From Daphnia pulex (Eukaryota; Arthropoda; Branchiopoda; Diplostraca; Daphniidae), in contig NC_060023.1 in the NCBI RefSeq assembly GCF_021134715.1, positions 1,550,001 to 1,614,000 on the forward strand: DNA of 64,000 nt. Reading direction: 5' to 3'. This document shows, one piece after another, positions 1 to 55,599 of this stretch; the stretch's first letter is position 1; each line of letters opens with the position of its first letter. The position numbers and the translations under genes were made by a program. The notes below the pieces were generated by a model that saw only the letters and a program-made list of their open reading frames with translations, was not told where the DNA came from and ran no database searches.

Positions 1-1376
1 AAAACCATTCCCAATATTACAAGAAAAAAACAAAAATGTTTGATTATTAACTATTTTTGTATTATGAGAGTGAATGAGGGTATTCCTTAAATGGGTTTGA
101 AATAAAAGAAAATGTGAATCGATTCCTTCGCTTTCACCATTCATCACCGATGAATTTAAATGTATAAGAGCAAACCGGCTTATCTGTTGATGTGGCAAGT
201 GATCAGCGTATAAAAATAAATCTTGTGATAACAGAAACAAGGTTTTTTATTTGTAGTTAATCGATTTGAGCTTGTTTTTTTTTATAATAAGCCGCATTGC
301 TCATCTTGTTGATTTATTGACTGTGGTTTGTTTGTACGACCGTCTTAGTTCATGTATACTGGTGTTTAATGGAAGCTATGTGACTCATCCTTATCTTATT
401 GCTGTTTGATTGCAATAGCATCAAGTCAACACCTTTTTGGGTGGTGACTTAATTCAAGTTTCTTTCGGTTTCCAAAAGTTTCTAGTTGCTTCTGTCTTCC
501 AGATTTCAATCAATGGTGCAATCACGGGAAATTTGTCGAGTTGAGCACTTGCCTTTGTGCCATTTCTGTCAGAAATAAAAATAAATATATCGTCAACAGA
601 GATTTGACCAGGTTTAGACTTGTCCGGTCGGCCGGCGATATTTGTTTTTAGTCAGAGATTTTGGCATTGATTATAAATACACCTTGTTTAATTGTTTTTT
701 AAAAGAAATTGCTCGGTATTTTTGGCTTAGGTTTACCCCTTTTCATTCCTCGAATTGTTGTCGCCTTGACAAATCACGGTTAATTTAAAATTTCAGCGAA
801 AAGTCATCAAAGGCGTCAGAGATGAATGAATCAGAAAACATTTTTGGGGTGGGAATTCCCCACAGAATTAATTAATTTCTCCAAATTCTTTAACCTGTTC
901 ATTCATATTTCCCTAGTCCCGAAACATTTTGAAATGTTCGTCACCAAATGTGTTAAGCCAGTTGCCCGAAACGTGACCGCATACATAATCCAATCATAAA
1001 TACCTAAATTTTTCACTTGTGATAAAAATATTGTTAATTCGACTTGTCCGCTGAACATTGCAATATCCTCTGCCAGGTAAGTGCGTGTTATTACTACCGG
1101 TTATTATTACGTAATTAAGGTTATTACAGAAATAATACTTTGATGGCGCAACATTCAATATTTGATTTGGCCGGACTGGGCACGTGGCAACGACAATCAA
1201 CTTAGATAGACTTGTTGAAAAATGATTTTGACGTATTACAGGTGCGAAGGGATTTATTCCGATCAAAAATCAATGCATGAATAATATTCGTGTCCATACT
1301 AGCACGAGAGGGGGAGGAGGGGTTTTTCTGATTCAGCGCTGATAGCGAGCCTTGATTGCCTAATTGGTAAAAAAGG
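1..1376. other. Upstream region, no gene seen
   Basis: AT-rich DNA with no supported coding exon. From roughly position 480 on it resembles 3480-4300, including a shared stretch near 795 and 3745 that reads AAATTTCAGCGAAAAGT-like. It is therefore the 5' part of the tandem duplication unit and probably holds the regulatory region of the first copy. Confidence 0.6.
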
Positions 1377-1384
1377 TATAAATA
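1377..1384 (+). promoter_or_regulatory. TATA box of first tandem secreted-protein gene
   Basis: The sequence TATAAATA lies about 150 bases before the start codon at 1528. The second copy has TATATAAAA at the matching place, so both copies appear to carry their own core promoter. Confidence 0.6.
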
Positions 1385-1527: not shown

Positions 1528-2967
1528 ATGACGCCCGAACCAGTCACTAGAGTTCGATGGATCTTTCACCTCATTTATGGTCAGTTTCTCGAAATAATCA
1601 TTTTTAAAATGTTGCACACAAGTTATAGAATTAATGAGAGCGCTGAGGTGGGGTGAAATAGTGATGTATTTTTTACAAAAATTTCGTTTTGAATTTGGCG
1701 CCACATTCCTTTCGAATCTAATCTCTTGCACCTAAAGGCATCGGCTTTTATCTTGTCGGTGAGATAAATCACTGAAGGTTTTTCCGGTTCTTTCACTATT
1801 GAACACGTTGTTTAAAAGATCGGTGTCCAGACAAGAGTTTAACTCATCTAAATCTAGTAAAATTTAGCTTCTTATTTTGTCTCATTAGAATTCATTGCCT
1901 GTTTTATTTTTTACAACAATTCAAAATCATTTTTGAAAATTAGTGAATATCCAACGGTGAAATTTCACGACGACTAGTTTGACCTCATTTCACATTTAAA
2001 AAAATTAATTCTCAATTTTATTTCGTCATTTCCATTTTAGTTTTGTTCTGCTTAAGCAAGAGAGTCATGGCTTCACCTGTCACTGGTGACTTGAGTCGGT
2101 CCACTCGAATTGGCCCTGAAGGTCCGGAATTCTGGATCCAGCCATGCGGATACACTGTGGAAGGAAATACTCCACCGTATCCTGACTCTGTTTTAGCAGG
2201 AGATTACAAATCTTACCTGCAGATGGACCTCCTTTATCTCGAACAGTGGCTGGGGAATTTCGTAATTACAGAAAAATTAATTTCAGTGTTGCCTCATTAG
2301 AAATTAAATATTCACATTTTCATTTAGTGTCAGGACAAATTCCTAATGTCTTTTGCCGATCAAGTGAAAAGCGATGAAGCTTACCGCTATGATTGGCTTC
2401 AAGTTAACACCGTCATTCCAAAAAAGCCCGGTCAGCACTTGACTGCATCCCATTATTCTCAACAGCAGGTATGCATAATCAAATATTTACCAGTTGAAGG
2501 TTATGGTGAATTAATCATTCATTTTTATTTATTCGGTCATTTGATTTCTAGTTTTCTGCCATGTTGACCCAATCATCCAACATTTTCCAACGGATCGCCA
2601 TTGGTTGGGAACAAATGGAATATGAGAAAACCGATTCCTCTTACAAAGATTATTTCACATCCGCAAAATTCCGCATGAAAACTGTAAGTTTTTTCAAAAA
2701 ATTCAATTCTCTGTGTTTAACATTTTCTAATGAACTGTTTTATAGACGTTGTGTCAGTTGGATGGATATTTGGCTGATAAGAAAATGTCTCCGGCGCCCA
2801 ATCCGACCCGGTCCATTATGCCAAATGAATTGCGTTCAATCACGAGCGCATCCCAACGCGACCAACGTAATTTCCGCATCATAAAAGAATATGTCAACGC
2901 CCTAGAATATTACGTCGATGCGTTTAGCTACTTTGAAACAGCTTCGGCTCAGAAGTCTTCCCTCTAA
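1528..2967 (+). CDS. Secreted four-helix cytokine-like protein, tandem copy 1
   Basis: Not a family I recognise. Five exons join in phase: 1528-1579, 2041-2261, 2328-2468, 2552-2683 and 2746-2967, giving about 255 residues. Residues 1-30 form a hydrophobic leader, with a plausible cut after VMA. The mature part starts with a Gly/Pro-rich segment (RSTRIGPEGPEFWIQPCGYT). Long helix-prone stretches follow, including YKSYLQMDLLYLEQWL, FQRIAIGWEQMEYEK, FRMKTTLCQLDGYLADKK and FRIIKEYVNALEYYVDAF. A long loop separates the first two and a Pro-rich loop precedes the last. That layout fits an up-up-down-down four-helix bundle, as in the CNTF/CLC/Unpaired group. The fold is inference; the exon model is well supported because copy 2 keeps every junction. 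Confidence 0.8.
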
Positions 2968-4278
2968 TTATTTCCTATAATTTATTTCCTTCTGGCTTTT
3001 GTGATAGTTTATAGGAAAAAAGATCTCTATTCAAAAAATATGTCTCTTACAAAATGATCTTGTTAAAAAGAAACGTTTAAGGTGCTAGATTACGTCCCAG
3101 TCTTGATGATTATAATTCCATATAATTAATATTTAATGTTATGTCCTATATATTTTGAATCGTTTGCCAAAGTATTTATCGCAGGGACTTTTAATGCTGA
3201 CTTGACTTAATGTTGCTAATGGTAACCACAAATGAAAATCTATTTAACAGTGCCAAACTATTGCCAAAAATCAAAGAGAGAAGAATAAAATATTTCACGA
3301 CAAGCAATTGTGTTTAATTATTTTTAAATTCCCGGTGATTTTCTGTTTTGACCAGGAGATTATAAATTTTACCTGTAGATGGACCTCCTTTACCTTAATC
3401 AGTGGCTGGAAAATTTGATTAGTTCAAAAATGTAATTTTCTGTTTTTGCTTAAAGTAAATTTTCTCATCCGTCTTTCACTGTTTCACATAACAATTGATG
3501 ATGCAATAAGGGGAATTTTTTTAACCAAATCACTTTTCAATTAATCGGTTTCATCCACATAGATTTTATCTGGCCCAGACTTGCCCGGTCGGTGATTTAC
3601 TACGTCAAGGCAGCAGAGATTTTGGCATTTTTACACCTTTTTATGAATTGAACCTTTTTATGAATGGTTAAAAAATGTCGGCATTTTTACTTGATTTCCT
3701 CTTTTCATTCTTTGAATTTTGTCACCTTGAAAATCACAGTTAACAAAATTCAGCGAAAAGTAATTAAAGGTGTCTGAGATGAAGGTAAAAACTTGTCGAA
3801 TGAATCAGAAAATTTGGGAATTCCTCACAGTACCAATAAATTTTCTAAATCTTGACCCAGTCCTGACCCAATTAATTATTCATCCAGTCGCGAAACAGTT
3901 TTTACGTCACGGACGTATGACGTAATGAGTTACGTATGAACTGATGATTGACAGGCACGTGACCATGCAAGATGCAACCAATCATAAAACGTTATAGAAA
4001 TACAGTATATACCTGAATACATTAAATTGTCATGTATTAAGTTATCCCAATTTCACCGGTGATTATAATATTGATTGCGATAATGTGTCAGGCGCACGTG
4101 CGTGACGTAAATATGTACCGGAAATTGCATTGATGGTGCAACAGAAAAAATGCGATTTATGTTGGCGCATATGATTACATATTTTGGCATGATTGAACAA
4201 TCTGTGTAAATAATTAATTGATTGATTTGTTTGACATTTGTTTCTTAGGCGTGGAATTGGCAGACAGATAAGATAACA
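2968..4278. other. Spacer between tandem copies, with pseudo-exon
   Basis: The 3' untranslated region of copy 1 is followed by AATAAA near 3284. A degenerate piece of exon 2 lies at about 3350-3415, and the region upstream of copy 2 repeats that of copy 1. No intact gene was seen. Confidence 0.6.
3350..3415 (+). pseudogene. Relic of exon 2 of the tandem secreted-protein gene
   Basis: The sequence closely follows the second exon of both flanking genes, from the AGGAGATTA stretch through the segment coding MDLLYLxQWLxNF. A TAG interrupts the frame just before the methionine codon. The surrounding exons are absent. It suggests a third copy that was lost, or an unequal crossover scar. Confidence 0.75.
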
Positions 4279-4287
4279 TATATAAAA
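4279..4287 (+). promoter_or_regulatory. TATA box of second tandem secreted-protein gene
   Basis: TATATAAAA lies about 160 bases before the start codon at 4446, in the position equivalent to the TATA of copy 1. Transcription would start near 4310-4320. Confidence 0.6.
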
Positions 4288-4445
4288 ACCGGAGTATCCA
4301 TCACAAAAATCACACTTTACTTTGATTCTTTGGATGAAGAACAAGTTATTCCAAGAGCAAAATTCGATTATTGCTTCATTCTCTCCATCAACACAATTGT
4401 TTTCCAGCTCAAAAACAATTCTTATTCAATCAGCACTTAAGCAAG

Positions 4446-5843
4446 ATGACGTCCAAACGAGTCACCCAAATTCGTTGGATCCTTTGCCTAATTGCTGGTT
4501 AGTTTTTCAAAATGTGTTGCACAAGTTCTTAATGAGGATGCGGAGGGGTGTGATGAAATCAATCAATTTTTTTAAAAACATTTTTGAATTTTGGCGCCAA
4601 ATTTCTTATCTAATCTCTTGTGTCTATGGCAACGGCTTTATCTTTTTGACTCACGCGATCGCAGTAAATTTGTCCATTTCGTTTATACTAAACACGTTGT
4701 TTTAGAACGATGTTCCGAAAAACTGGTTTCATCAAAACTGGTCAATGTAACTTCCGATTATCAGTCAAATATCTATTTCATTGTCTGTTTTATATTTACA
4801 AAACAATCCAAAATCATTTTTGAAAATTAGTGAAAATCCAACGGTGAAATATCGTGAAGAGAAAATGTGATCTCACTTCAAATTTATAATAATACATAAA
4901 TTCTCAATTTAATTTCCTCATTTTTAATTTTAGTTTTGATCTGCTTAAGCAAGAGAGTCATGTCCTCACCTGTCACTGGTGACTTGAGTCGGTCCACTCG
5001 AATTGGCCCTGAAGGTCCGGAATTCTGGATCCAGCCATGCGGATACACAGTGGAAGGAAATACTCCACCATTTCCTGACTCTGTTTTAGCAGGAGATTAC
5101 AAATCTTACCTGGAGATGGACCTCCATTACCTTGAAGAGCTGTGGCTAGAACAATTTGTAATTTCCAAAAATTAATTTCGGTGTTGGCTTATGCATTGAA
5201 TATTCACATTTTCATTTAGTGTCTGGACAAGTTTTTAATGTCTTTTGCCGATAAAGTGAAAAGTGATGAAGCTTACCGCTATGATTGGCTTCAAGTTAAC
5301 ACCGTCATTCCAAAAAAGCCCGGTCAGCACTTGAATGAATCCCATTATTCTCAACTGCAAGTATGAATAAACAAATATTTACCATTTGAAAGTTATGGTG
5401 AATTGATCATTCATTTCCCTTTTATAGTTTCCTTCCATGCTGACTCAATCATCCAACATTTTCCAACGGATCGCCATTGGTTGGGAACAAATGGAATATG
5501 AGAAAACCGATTCCTCTTACAAAGATTATTTCACATCCGCAAAATTCCGCATGAAAACTGTAAGTTTTTCAAATGAAATTCACTTCTCTGTGTTAACATT
5601 TTCTAATGAACTGTTTTATAGACGTTGTGTCAGTTGGATGGATATTTGGCTGATAAGAAAATGTCTCCGGCGCCCAATCCGACCCGATCCATTATGCCAA
5701 ATGAATTGCGTTCAATCACAAGCGCATCCCAACGGGACGAACGTAATTTCCGCATCATAAAAGAATACGTCAACGCCCTAGAATATTACGTCGATGTATT
5801 CAGCTACTTCGAAACAGCTTTGGCTTCAAAGTCTTCCCTCTAA
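4446..5843 (+). CDS. Secreted four-helix cytokine-like protein, tandem copy 2
   Basis: Five exons at 4446-4497, 4934-5157, 5220-5360, 5428-5559 and 5622-5843 give 256 residues. The start (MTSKRVTQIRWILCLIAV) is a better signal peptide than in copy 1. All intron positions and phases match copy 1. Exons 4 and 5 are almost identical at the base level, so the duplication is recent or kept alike by gene conversion. The few differences are mostly in the first exon and around the first helix (LHYLEELWLEQF against LLYLEQWLGNF). Three cysteines (after the Trp-rich N-terminal segment, at the start of exon 3, and in LCQLDGYL) are kept in both copies. The function is unknown; a helical cytokine is the best structural guess. 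Confidence 0.82.
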
Positions 5844-6538: not shown

Positions 6539-7601
6539 ATGAATAAGTGTTTTAAACCGACCCGAACTGTTTTGATAGCTGTGGGATCTTTCAACCCGCC
6601 GACAAACATGCATCTGCGGATTTTTGGTAACTTGACCCATTCATTTCTGAACTATTTTCACAACAATCCATGACTTCAATATTGAAATAAGAGCTTGCCA
6701 AGGATTTCCTGCAGAAAAATGATCATGAAGTACTTGGAGGCATCATTTCACCTGTCCACGATCAGTATGGAAAGAAGGTAGATTAGTTTCTAAATATCCA
6801 ATAAAACATTCTGGTGCCTGATGAGTTAGTTGATCTTTTATATTTTTTAGGGTTTGGTAACGGCTGAACACAGATGCTCTATGCTCAAGTTGGCAGTTGA
6901 GACATCTAACTGGGTTAACATTTCTGAATGGGAAACCCAGCAAGAAGGATGGACCAGAACGGCAGAAAGCCTCAAATTTTACAAGGTGAATTAAAGAAGA
7001 GTACCATTATTTATAGTTTGCTATAATGGTTTTTGTTTCATTTCAGAAAGCTCTTAATGATATTAACAGTGAATTTGACTGGGCCAAAAAGATTCAGGCC
7101 AAAATGTTGGACAAGGAATTCCCGTTGAACATCAACTTAAAACTTTTGTGTGGTGCAGATCTAATTGAGTCTTTTGCTGTCCCTGGACTCTGGAAAGATG
7201 AAGATGTTGGTTGATGTTGCATTTTATAAATTATTCATTCAAAATTACCAAGATTAATTTGTTCGGTTTTCATTTATAGATTGAAGACATTGTGAGCAAT
7301 TATGGATTGGTGGTCATTTCACGTTCTGGGTCCAATCCGCAGCAGTTTATTTATGAATCCGATTTGCTAACTCGCCTGCAGGTATATTTACTTAATCAGA
7401 TTTTTTTTTATTGACCTAACTCGTGTCTTAAATCCAAATAATATTGCACAGAGAAATATCAGCATAGTTCCAGAGTGGATAACGAATGAAATCAGCTCAA
7501 CCAAGATTCGAAGAGCTCTAAGCCGTGGCGAGAGTGTTCGATACCTGACGAGCGATTCGGTAATCGACTATATTCAGACCAATCGTCTCTACATCCAGTG
7601 A
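6539..7601 (+). CDS. Nmnat: Nicotinamide mononucleotide adenylyltransferase
   Basis: Joins NMN (or nicotinate mononucleotide) with ATP to make NAD, the last step of NAD synthesis. Six exons at 6539-6626, 6692-6777, 6851-6985, 7047-7205, 7280-7381 and 7452-7601 join in phase to give 239 residues, a little shorter than the animal enzymes. The N-terminal nucleotide-binding motif is complete ([14 protein letters not shown], about residues 16-29). [13 protein letters not shown] follows, then [17 protein letters not shown], and near the C-terminus [11 protein letters not shown], the family's ISxTxxR motif. No nuclear-localisation or membrane segment is obvious. The second intron boundary has a weak polypyrimidine tract but keeps the conserved FELAKDFL reading. 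The start is the first ATG in frame shortly before the motif. Confidence 0.95.
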
Positions 7602-8356: not shown

Positions 8357-8669
8357 ATGAACAAGTCCGTAGCATTCCTTCTCGTGCTGGTTTGTGTCCA
8401 GCTAATGATCCAGGTATATCTAATATTACTTTACATTTATTGATTATAATTTCATTGTATTAACATTTTTACAGGGCAGCGAACAAAATCCAATTGCTGA
8501 TGTTGAAGAAAAATGGTTTGCCGCTATGCGTCACAAACACGAATCGGCCAAAGGCGAGAATGGCCATCACCATGGCCATCACTATGGCCCAAACCAAGGA
8601 CATCATGGACATCACAAACGCTCGACTACTACGTCGTCGACAACAGAAGCGGCTCTAACAACCGTTTAG
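8357..8669 (+). CDS. Small secreted histidine-rich peptide precursor
   Basis: Not a recognised family. Two exons, 8357-8413 and 8475-8669, give 83 residues. The first exon is a clean signal peptide (MNKSVAFLLVLVCVQLMIQ). The second encodes a charged stretch, a His/Gly cluster (HHHGHHYGPNQGHHGHH), a Lys-Arg site where a processing protease could cut, and a Ser/Thr-rich tail. His clusters of this kind bind metal ions or occur in antimicrobial peptides, but which applies here is inference. A third exon may exist after an acceptor at about 8759, because the sequence there reads in one frame as SSAAPRRHPAP, but no donor joins it without a stop. Confidence 0.6.
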
Positions 8670-8971
8670 GTACCCATATCATAATCTCAAAAATTAATCC
8701 AATGGAAAATAATCGACATCACCACTGATTTGGTATGCTAAACAACTGTTGCATTACAGGCAGCTCCGCAGCTCCACGTCGACATCCGGCTCCATTGATT
8801 CGCCGTGAAACAATATGACCCTATTAAGGAACATTCTGTTTCTCTACGGAATACTGTTAACATAAATGGTGTGTTAAATTATTTAAAACAATTATGTGAT
8901 CCTACTAATCATTCCTTATCACGAATTGTTGTTATATTTCATTTAATTTCTGGCTATATACACTATGAAGT

Positions 8972-34464: not shown

Positions 34465-35222
34465 AGAAGAAGCCAACAAGTTGGCGAATGATTTAACACA
34501 CGCCAGTGCCCAAGGAAAATCCTTTTTAAAATCTCTTGACAATTATTGGCATTGTTATCGTTTACAGACGAGTGTGTGAAAGAGAGATGATAAAATACAA
34601 AACAACAAACAAACGGTCTGAATAGTTTTCTAATCTCTGTGGAATTTTATCTACTACATTAGTCCCAAGAGTAAGAAAGCCATATGTAAAAGGGGGTAAA
34701 TACCGACGGTCTATAGTTGGTTTGTTTAGTAATGCGACCTGGCACAGCTGCGTATGGTATATGTGTTTAGGATAGGAACTGTGACGTCAGAGCGATTCAA
34801 AATGGCGGATGGTGTTTTGGCCCGTACGTGTCAGAAATTATGCCTTAGCTTTGCGTCTTCTTTATACACCACCCGCATAGCCTTCTAAATATTGTATTCG
34901 TTCAGTGCATTAGGACTTGATAGAGCCTCTATTTTTTTACTATAGACTAGTTTTGTGACAGTGAATGTAATTGCAAAGAATTGTTTTGTGTAAAGCTTGG
35001 TTTGGAAGCTATATATCGCGTCGGGGTGCGTTTTTGGGCGAAGCCGGACGTGACTCGCAGCGATAAGGTGTGGTGGGAGATTTTCAGATTCCTTGCTTTA
35101 ACAAATCCAATTAATTCACGACATTTGCATAGTGATTGGAGTGTTAACAGAATTTTCCTGATGTGTTGACTACAAAACCCCCTTGCATTCTATCTTCAAC
35201 CTCCTGCATGGGCTAGGTGAAA
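34465..35222 (+). promoter_or_regulatory. Spacer with probable SLK kinase promoter and 5' UTR
   Basis: About 750 bases between ERGIC1 and the kinase. The word AAAATGGCGG near 34798 is a typical YY1/Pho-type site. An initiator-like TTCAGTGCA lies near 34903. No TATA box is obvious, which fits a housekeeping promoter. The rest is probably 5' UTR. Confidence 0.4.
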
Positions 35223-39706
<4,484 letters not shown>

Positions 39707-52930: not shown

Positions 52931-55599
52931 CTTGTTGACCATATTGGTCCGTGTGTGTGGGAGAGTTTGGGGATGGCTAAATTCATCATAATCATCTTTT
53001 GTGTCGAATTGTTGCGCCTGCGCTCGCGTAGGAGTACACGGAGGAGATCGAGAGGTTGCGCCGGGACCTGCTAGCCGCCCGCGAGAAGAACGGCGTCTAC
53101 ATGGCGCAGGAGAATTATGAGCAAATCACTCGCGAGATTGAATTGCAGCGCAAGGAGATTGTCGAGAAGCTGGAACAGATCAAGGCCATGGAGGAGGAAC
53201 AGACTCGCAAGGAGGAATCCTGCCAGCAGCTCCAGGGACTCTATGACGAGCAGCAGACCGTCCTACACGTAAGTGTCAATCTCTTTCTTCCCCCGCACGT
53301 TTTTTTTTATTTAAATTTTAAAGCGAAATTGATTTTTGATTGACGGGGACTACTTTGCAGGCCACGGCGGAGGAGCTCAACAGCACCAAACACAATCTGT
53401 CGATGACTCGATCCAAGCTGAAGCAGACCAGACGCCAGCGTGACGAAAAGGGACACGTTGTCCTTCACCAGACTCGCACCGAGCAGCAACTGGGCATCCA
53501 AGCCCGTGAATTGCTCAAAGTCGCTGACGTCTCGACGGATCACGTAGACAAACTTCACTCGAAGCTGGATCGTAAACGGTAAACACCTCGAATGCTGCTC
53601 CAAATGCTGGAATTTCCATTTGATTCTCTAAAACATTTGAAACATTTTTTTTTTCGTGGGGTGAAACAGGTCGGTCGAGAAGGAGAATGAGCGGATCAAC
53701 CAAGAATTCCGTCAGAGTTTCGCCCAAAACGTGGGCCGCATGGAGGACAGCCTGGAGAATTTCGTCAAGGATCACACCAAATTCCTGGGCGATCTGTCTG
53801 GCAGTTATGGAACGATCATGGCCAAGCAGAGCCGCGATCTGAGCGTCTTGAGCGAATTGATGTCGTCGCTGGTCAAGTCGCAGTCGCAGTTCGCCGAGGG
53901 CCAGCGCAAGGCCGCCACCGACAGCACGCACAGCACTCAGGAATTCACGAAATCCTTCCTGGGCACGACGAGGACCCAAGTCAACGCCCAGGTGGCCAAT
54001 CAGAATCAGTTTCTCGTGGACAATTTCTTACCCAAGTTCCAGACGGTGGCCAAGGCCCTGCAGGAGCAAGGACAGGCGGTCCAGCAGCTCCAGCGCTCGA
54101 TGACGGAGGATCTCCAGCAGCAGGCGGATTTGGTGAACGTTCTGTTGACGGATCAAAAGGACGGCATGAACCGGTTGAGGCAGGTGGCCCAGCAGTGGGA
54201 CCAGCAGACGGAGTCGCATCTGCGCCGGATCAGCGAGCAGCAGACACTTTCCAGCCAGTCGCTGAGTGAATTCGACGCCGAGAGCAACAAGCAAATGCAG
54301 ATGATCATCAACCTGGTCAACTCTGTCCAGCAGACGCGCGAGAATTTCAAGAGCCGCATCAACGACACGAGCAGCGAAGTGTCTAACGCGGTCCAGATGG
54401 CGCAGCAGGAGCGCAGCAATTTCTACCACGTCGTCGAGACGACGGCCAACGACTTTGTCAACAAGGGCAAGGATCTCCGCAGCCAGTTGGAGACGGCCCG
54501 CTCGACTTTGCTGCAGACGGCGACGGCCTCGCTGGAGAAGGGCGTCGGCCGGATGCAGGACTCGTCCAAGACGTGCGCCGTCATCGAGGGCGACGTTTCC
54601 AGTCACGTGACGGCCTCGCAGGCCGCCTGGCAGGAGCTCTACAGCGCCCAGGAGACGGATTTGCGCAAACACTCTGATCACTTGAACGGGGCCCTGCTGA
54701 GCCACGCCCACTTGACGACCGAGTCGCTCCACTCGCTCCACGTTGCCGCCCAGACTCAGGAGGCTCTGCTGGAGGAGCAGCGAGCCGACATGGTGACGAC
54801 GGTCCGCGAGAGACGCGACGACTTGGAGGCCCACACCTCGTCGATGAGCGATTGGAGCTCGCTCCTCTCGACCGAGATCCGCCAGCGCAACAACGACGTG
54901 GTCAAATTCATCGTCGAAGATATGCGTCAAGATGTCGCCACAGGTCGGTTGATTTTCCACCAGGATCGTGTTTTTTCTTTTGTGTCTAATAAAATGTTGG
55001 GGTTTTAATTGGATCGAAAACATCTTTCCGCAGGACAAACGCCGCAGAGGAGAGAATTTGGATTCCCGAGATTCTTGGCTTCGACTTCTCCCCACGAGCG
55101 GATCATCGAGAGATTCCACGAGGAGCGGGGACCCTACAACACGGACGAGGAAGACGACGACGCTGCGGAATTCTCGCAGCTCAGCCGCCGTCACACGGTC
55201 AACGAGGCTAGCGGCAAAGCCACGACCTCTTCGACGGCCGTGATTCACCGCTCGGCGTCTATGAACGATTTGGCCAATCCTGACAAATCTGCAGGAGCGT
55301 CGTCGGCTTCTTCAGCCTCGGCGTCTTCCAGCCACGGTGGATCTTCTTCGCTGCCTCAACCGAATCACCGGGCCAGCACTGGTGGAGAGTCTCACGCAAA
55401 TCTGGGTTTTCATCGCGCTCTCTCCGTCGAAGGATCGCTCAACACCAGCGGCAAGGAAAACAAAGAAAATTTCGCCGTTCCCCAAGATCCCCTTCCGGTG
55501 GGTGCAGCATCGGGCGGAGGCAAGAAAATTCAACGACAGCAATCCGGACCACAGTCTGGCCGTAAAATCCTCAACTCTCAAAATACCAAAAGTTCTTAA
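47830..55599 (+). CDS. KIF11: Kinesin-5 (Eg5/KIF11) spindle motor
   Basis: A tetrameric plus-end motor that pushes spindle poles apart in mitosis. Ten exons, 47830-47897, 47972-48272, 48346-48503, 48581-48659, 48761-49068, 49188-49380, 53032-53268, 53361-53578, 53670-54943 and 55034-55599, give 1133 residues, slightly longer than human Eg5. The motor domain has the P-loop GQTGTGKT, switch I NAHSSRSH, switch II DLAGSE and the neck start KKALLK. A coiled coil follows ([20 protein letters not shown]). A BimC box lies near the C-terminus ([13 protein letters not shown]), the Cdk1-phosphorylated motif of the family. The tail after it is Ser/Gly-rich. The sixth intron, 3.65 kb, is far longer than the others and holds a candidate promoter and exon. 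All joins stay in frame. Confidence 0.97.
49381..50289 (+). other. First part of kinesin-5 intron 6
   Basis: Intronic DNA, partly G-rich near 49780-50090. No exon is supported here. Confidence 0.5.
50290..50314 (+). promoter_or_regulatory. Octamer and TATA promoter inside kinesin-5 intron
   Basis: ATGCAAAT at 50290-50297 is a perfect octamer site, and TATAAATA follows at 50307-50314. Such a pair is a good core promoter. It would begin a transcript near 50340 that reads toward the transmembrane exon at 51729. Confidence 0.5.
50315..51728 (+). other. Probable 5' UTR and intron DNA before the transmembrane exon
   Basis: GT-rich runs near 50345-50385, then T-rich and GA-rich DNA. If the intronic promoter is used, much of this would be 5' UTR. 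Open frames on the minus strand here look like chance. Confidence 0.4.
51729..51863 (+). CDS. Candidate transmembrane first exon inside kinesin-5 intron
   Basis: An ATG at 51729 opens 45 codons ending at a consensus donor (CGG then GTAAGT). The frame has a Gly-rich start ([10 protein letters not shown]) and a strong membrane span ([18 protein letters not shown]). It ends in phase 0, as does the kinesin-5 exon junction at 49380/53032. Spliced to 53032, it would give a membrane-anchored coiled coil without the motor. It could instead be the first exon of a nested gene whose later exons I cannot place. The GC-rich codon use is unlike the rest of the intron. Confidence 0.5.
51864..53031 (+). other. 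Last part of kinesin-5 intron 6, with GT microsatellite
   Basis: A GT dinucleotide run occupies about 52900-52927. CT-rich tracts flank it. No exon is supported. Confidence 0.6.

Follow-up and report, generated by a model that had tools for sequence, protein, structure and literature searches.

Here we describe two adjacent genes near one end of a 64,000-nucleotide stretch of Daphnia pulex DNA (NCBI RefSeq assembly GCF_021134715.1, contig NC_060023.1, positions 1,550,001 to 1,614,000 of the forward strand; hereafter the window, numbered from its first base), together with the small family of predicted secreted helical proteins to which they belong. Genes 1 and 2 are real genes and form an intact tandem pair, in agreement with a preliminary description of this DNA: each comprises five exons, every intron of the spliced models is bounded by GT-AG, and the spliced frames are open over 255 amino acids in gene 1 and 256 amino acids in gene 2. 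The exons of the spliced models are as follows (helix limits are those of a low-confidence structural model considered below):

1528..1579, plus strand: gene 1 exon 1, start codon and first part of the signal peptide, ending in phase 1
2041..2261, plus strand: gene 1 exon 2, remainder of the signal peptide, N-terminal tail (N-tail) with the PCG cysteine, and first half of predicted helix A, ending in phase 0
2328..2468, plus strand: gene 1 exon 3, remainder of predicted helix A and AB loop, ending in phase 0
2552..2683, plus strand: gene 1 exon 4, predicted helix B and first half of predicted helix C, ending in phase 0
2746..2967, plus strand: gene 1 exon 5, remainder of predicted helix C with the LCQL cysteine, CD loop, predicted helix D, and stop codon
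4446..4497, plus strand: gene 2 exon 1
4934..5157, plus strand: gene 2 exon 2
5220..5360, plus strand: gene 2 exon 3
5428..5559, plus strand: gene 2 exon 4
5622..5843, plus strand: gene 2 exon 5

The exon coordinates give coding lengths of 52, 221, 141, 132, and 222 bases for gene 1, and intron phases are 1-0-0-0 in both genes. The most hydrophobic 12-residue segment of either product lies at residues 12-23, and on inspection a hydrophobic N-terminal core is followed by SKRVMASP, SKRVMSSP, or TRNVMAAP in the family members. The N-termini of both products fit a cleavable signal peptide, as had been proposed from inspection, and secretion is what the sequence predicts. The mature chains are 93% identical, and both genes appear to be kept by purifying selection, given a nonsynonymous divergence (dN) of 0.037 against a synonymous divergence (dS) of 0.172 (dN/dS ~0.21; NG86 method, mature chain). 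We regard them as recent tandem duplicates.

Protein-level searches of the organism's own genome (133.2 Mb on 13 contigs, with only the best candidates scored) located a diverged paralogue, gene 3, on the minus strand outside the window (C7:1542102-1539159). It lies 9.4 kb upstream of gene 1 in head-to-head arrangement and shares 28% identity with gene 2 (65 of 228 positions), and its last three introns, all in phase 0, occupy the same alignment columns as those of genes 1 and 2 (between F and C or V, between Q or E and F or L, and between T or M and T or V). When gene 3 was read by hand from the genome-search output, a phase 1 intron was seen ahead of the signal region and one additional phase 1 intron in the N-tail; the first exon was not found in this reading. 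With gene 3 as query, all 7 genomic matches at E-values up to 10 lay inside genes 1, 2, and 3. Gene 3 is likely an older copy and good bait for orthologues. A relic lies between genes 1 and 2:

3347..3461, plus strand: dead partial copy (end of exon 2 and start of intron 2), 115 bases, 74% identical to gene 1, with in-frame stops, from the own-genome search and comparison with gene 1

The genome holds two intact family members, a third that is complete but for its first exon, and this one relic. A match of gene 1 on contig C12 (E 0.60 over the whole genome; E 4e-5 within its 6 kb piece alone) shows none of the motifs conserved in the family when inspected by eye and was judged to be chance, and two collections without other eukaryotes, viral_contigs and genome_contigs, gave 60 and 52 pattern matches, respectively, with 0 confirmed as relatives.

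The mature gene 3 product contains exactly two cysteines, one in the N-tail (PCG) and one in helix C (LCxL), and both are common to genes 1 and 2 (3 of 3 paralogues), where they fall at mature residues 25 and 157/158. Besides PCG, the stretches conserved between genes 2 and 3 are FxMxF...YDWL....PK..G..L, where helix A passes into the AB loop, QxIAxGxEQ, where helix B ends, and RxxSASxRxxRxFxIxxxYxNxLEY, where helix D begins. In an up-up-down-down bundle with the modelled helix limits, the latter three would share one end, which is where receptor site III of IL-6-family cytokines sits.

Structural models were obtained with AlphaFold2 (AF2) for the full mature chain and for the core. Both contain four main helical regions, the first of them fragmented; the middle loop is short (3 and 7 residues), whereas the first and last are longer. 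Among the matches listed for the core model, the highest Foldseek probabilities belonged to G-CSF and IL-11, and 24 of the 50 VIA rows were long-chain cytokines, a group with few PDB entries relative to ferritin-like and other helical bundles.

The gene plan offers a second point of comparison. IL6 and PRL are described as having five exons and four introns; the exons of human IL6 carry 19, 191, 114, 147, and 168 coding bases, from which its phases are 1-0-0-0, and its junctions are located close to where helix A ends, where helix B begins, and past the midpoint of helix C. The corresponding junctions of gene 2 follow mature residues 64, 111, and 155, placing them, in the model, past the midpoint of helix A, directly before helix B (model residue 77, mature residue 112), and past the midpoint of helix C. 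Five coding exons with phases 1-0-0-0 are found in genes 1 and 2, gene 3 differing by its extra N-tail intron. The correspondence with IL6 is good, subject to helix limits taken from a low-confidence model and to background values for the comparators, and phase 1 introns near signal peptides are common in animals (PMC1626468); neither a published statement of a 1-0-0-0 rule nor the IL6 exon lengths were found among the papers listed in literature searches.

Like IL-6, IL-11, G-CSF, LIF, and CNTF, the family is secreted, judging by its sequence, and has a predicted four-helix core of ~190 residues in which the BC loop is short and the AB and CD loops are longer. It resembles IL6 and PRL in its five exons and phases, LIF and OSM in having cysteines in the N-tail and helix C that may form a disulphide, and G-CSF and IL-11 in that these are among the nearest solved structures of the low-confidence core model. 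It differs from the vertebrate long-chain cytokines in showing no detectable sequence similarity to them, in carrying a ~40-residue N-tail before helix A, in lacking an FxxK where helix D begins, and in being crustacean. Unpaired ligands are secreted, helical, and encoded by clustered genes; the family shares the arthropod setting of these Drosophila Domeless ligands (Upd1-3), and genes 1, 2, and 3 give no match to the Unpaired model PF15972. Peroxiredoxin 4, a shrimp Domeless ligand according to PMC9195186, is likewise a proposed crustacean JAK/STAT activator, yet it is an enzyme and not a helical cytokine.

From gene structure, the cysteine pair, and the core-model matches, the best single reading is a secreted four-helix protein of IL-6-type layout, and we put at slightly better than even the chance that these genes encode a class I-like long-chain four-helix cytokine acting via JAK/STAT. 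Direct support extends to the gene structures, an N-terminus that reads as secretory, selection on the genes, their paralogues, the conserved cysteines, and the presence of a STAT gene. Under this cytokine reading, the chain would be secreted, the N-tail cysteine (mature 25) would pair with that of helix C (157/158), the bundle would fold up-up-down-down, and its conserved end (helix A end with AB loop start, helix B end, and helix D start) would bind a class I receptor. The receptor may be Domeless or a CRLF3-like protein signalling via JAK and STAT, and transcription may be induced through an upstream element, shared by both genes, with kappaB-like and STAT-like sites.

The main rival explanation is a lineage-specific secreted helical protein of another fold or role (for instance in haemolymph, eggs, or gut) that merely arrives at a four-helix appearance generically, and we consider this a serious possibility, though short of an even chance. 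Several results favour it and weigh against a cytokine. AF2 confidence is low, with a predicted local distance difference test (pLDDT) score of 34 for the full mature chain and a mean of 46.6 for the core; other helical bundles rank as high as cytokines for the core model, and the full-chain model retrieves helical hairpins, with no cytokine among the best 50 rows of either Foldseek or VIA. A Pfam search with genes 1, 2, and 3 returned no significant family (the sole hit, RUBY_RBDX at E 0.26, is far under the cut-off, and HMMER filters discard most matches above E 0.1), NCBIfam gave no significant family match, and neither gene 2 nor a three-member profile significantly matched the sequence of any PDB chain. 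Amphipathicity is close to chance: the observed fraction was reached by 17 of 500 shuffles for gene 2 and by 141 of 500 for gene 3, and hydrophobic periodicity shared by genes 2 and 3 was equalled by 70, 1620, 184, and 130 of 2000 shuffles for helices A, B, C, and D, compared with 150 of 2000 for the CD loop and 1510 of 2000 for the AB loop. Since only helix A falls below 5% and the CD loop scores as well, the periodicity test fails to tell helices and loops apart, and these statistics are too weak to carry a cytokine claim.

Further points on the same side are that all Foldseek E-values exceed 0.1 and that alignment scores with known cytokines are largely at chance (see below). What the rival does not lead one to expect of an arbitrary helical protein is the combination of five exons in 1-0-0-0 phases, an N-tail/helix C cysteine pair, and the long-chain cytokine share of core-model matches. 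The fold itself is not proven, because AF2 confidence is low, other bundles match equally, and no sequence test is significant. The proposal of a new arthropod helical cytokine stands as far as a secreted, predicted helical family is concerned, whereas cytokine identity is established neither by sequence nor by a confident structure. Similarly, four main helical regions are present in the low-confidence models, but not amphipathicity above chance; loop lengths fit an IL-6-type layout in those models, but sequence tests are non-significant and other bundles match as well; and fold search of the core gives four helices with G-CSF and IL-11 as neighbours, but not a confident up-up-down-down bundle (pLDDT 46.6, E >0.1). 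A profile match to a non-cytokine family, which would have counted against a cytokine, was sought in Pfam and NCBIfam, and no family matched significantly.

A ferritin-like (up-down-down-up) four-helix protein is very improbable: the 26 non-cytokine alignments among the matches listed for the core model begin at model residue 66-76 and mainly cover helices B-D, family proteins carry a secretory N-terminus, and ExxH, the diiron ligand motif of ferritin-like four-helix proteins, occurs in none of genes 1, 2, and 3 (0 of 3).

The preliminary description had also noted, by eye, a likeness to CLC/CNTF in two peptides, LCQLDGYL and FRIIKEYVNALEYYVDxF, with the caveat that it was weak and might be chance. 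Both peptides are present in exon 5 of both genes, and the caveat proved apt. Of the 10 alignments of genes 2 and 3 with CNTF, CLCF1, LIF, OSM, and IL-6, 9 score at chance level (z between -1.1 and 0.5; gene 2 with CNTF -1.1 and with CLCF1 0.5, gene 3 with CNTF 0.3). The tenth, gene 3 with CLCF1, is collinear with z=1.7, is equalled by 22 of 300 shuffles and, as the best of ten comparisons, is unremarkable. When hhalign was used to compare the family profile, of which its filter retained 2 of 3 rows, with CNTF/CLCF1/CT-1, the score was 13.4; this was reached by 28 of 100 profiles with shuffled columns, and the reversed profile scored 11.1. The CNTF (PF01110) and LIF_OSM (PF01291) profiles match none of the family proteins, and human CNTF and LIF do match their own models; own-genome scans with these profiles gave nothing usable, no control genome giving signal, and an own-genome scan for Unpaired, run without positive control, likewise gave nothing usable. 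The site III motif of CNTF, LIF, OSM, and CLCF1, an FxxK that opens helix D and is visible in the CNTF, LIF, and OSM sequences, is absent from that position; in genes 1 and 2 FxxK is confined to segments of helix A or C, and gene 3 lacks it altogether. The by-eye likeness is no evidence for CLC/CNTF kinship.

As a calibration, among pairs of the accepted members CNTF, CLCF1, LIF, OSM, and IL-6, 5 of 10 fail the same test (|z| <1) and 5 of 10 pass (z 3.6 to 9.4), and phmmer searches of solved chains with human CNTF, LIF, and OSM retrieve the same cytokine and unrelated rows (E >=0.15), with no other cytokine. Because half the accepted pairs fail and phmmer reaches no other cytokine, missing similarity counts weakly against close kinship and next to nothing against the fold. 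True membership of the CNTF/CLC/LIF subfamily, beyond a class I fold, is not supported and is the least probable reading of all, as the cysteine placement, the gene 3 VLCxL beside VLCRLC of LIF by eye, and the collinear CLCF1 alignment are set against a score that shuffles equal, profiles that do not match (the genome scans being without a responding control), and the absent FxxK.

Upstream of the two genes, the following features may contribute to regulation:

790..870, strand not assigned: distal element of gene 1 with STAT-like TTCAGCGAA (792-800) and kappaB-like GGGAATTCCC (851-860), from alignment of the upstream copies; putative function
3745..3830, strand not assigned: counterpart element of gene 2 with TTCAGCGAA (3749-3757) and GGGAATTCCT (3816-3825), from the same alignment; putative function
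1377..1383, plus strand: TATA-like box by pattern match, 151 bases ahead of the gene 1 start codon; putative function
4279..4285, plus strand: TATA-like box by pattern match, 167 bases ahead of the gene 2 start codon; putative function

The upstream copies share a block that is 70% identical (191 of 271 aligned bases), with a core at 86% (77 of 90) containing TTCAGCGAA and GGGAATTCC(C/T); identity is 44% (207 of 473) gene-ward of the block and 66% (101 of 152) in the portion adjoining and including exon 1, the limits of blocks and elements having been picked after inspecting the alignment. For GGGAATTCCY, 0.30 matches are expected in the window and 4 occur. They represent three sites, namely a palindrome at 851 that counts once per strand, the duplicate of that site at 3816, and one at 7114 that belongs to another gene. 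In the window, neither a broader kappaB pattern (11 against 10.4 expected) nor a STAT pattern (28 against 36.2) is enriched, and the TATA-like boxes are weak evidence, as the first 6000 bases hold 7 such matches.

With respect to the pathway, a STAT gene was found in the genome, as was a CRLF3-like receptor gene with WSPWS at C9:1331163-1331393 (E 5.8e-4 with a human CRLF3 query; identified partly by eye), three open frames of which gave no significant Pfam family. Class I receptors are characterized by a two-fn3 module with WSXWS. Another hit of the CRLF3 search is a titin/obscurin-like kinase by eye and was set aside. One Pfam model for JAK, run on the genome without positive control, gave nothing, and an IL6Ra-bind model gave 37 equal weak matches on 12 contigs (21.6 bits, below the cut-off, one stop each), taken as a probable repeat family that matches by chance. 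Domeless and JAK are single homologues in malacostracans according to PMC5437397; the words domeless, unpaired, and upd have 0 occurrences in the accessible text of the Daphnia pulex immune-gene paper (PMC2685406), and no crustacean helical cytokine was found among the papers listed in literature searches, as judged by titles and abstract openings.

Unpaired proteins are given as arthropod JAK/STAT ligands and arthropod activators of the pathway as largely unknown (PMC9195186), and no endogenous CRLF3 ligand is said to be identified (PMC8063046). A water flea helical cytokine family, if true, would be a concrete candidate for both roles, and relatives could be sought through gene plan and fold instead of sequence. 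The fuller proposal, that the locus encodes a crustacean class I cytokine, ligand of Domeless or orphan CRLF3, with an IL-6/LIF gene plan of five exons in phases 1-0-0-0, a disulphide from N-tail to helix C, and NF-kappaB/STAT-type control, and that the long-chain cytokine gene predates the protostome/deuterostome split, is speculative and on balance unlikely; if true, ancient origin would apply to the cytokine gene itself and not to the receptor alone.

Elsewhere in the window, by eye, a multi-exon gene at ~6541-7600 resembles nicotinamide mononucleotide adenylyltransferase, and a short gene at ~8358-8720, whose start resembles a signal sequence and which contains a stretch rich in histidine and glycine, GHHHGHHYGPNQGHHGHH, may encode a small secreted His-rich peptide. 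Coding stretches resembling a STE20/SLK kinase (35217-37446) and kinesin-5 (53665-55008) were recognized by eye from open frames.
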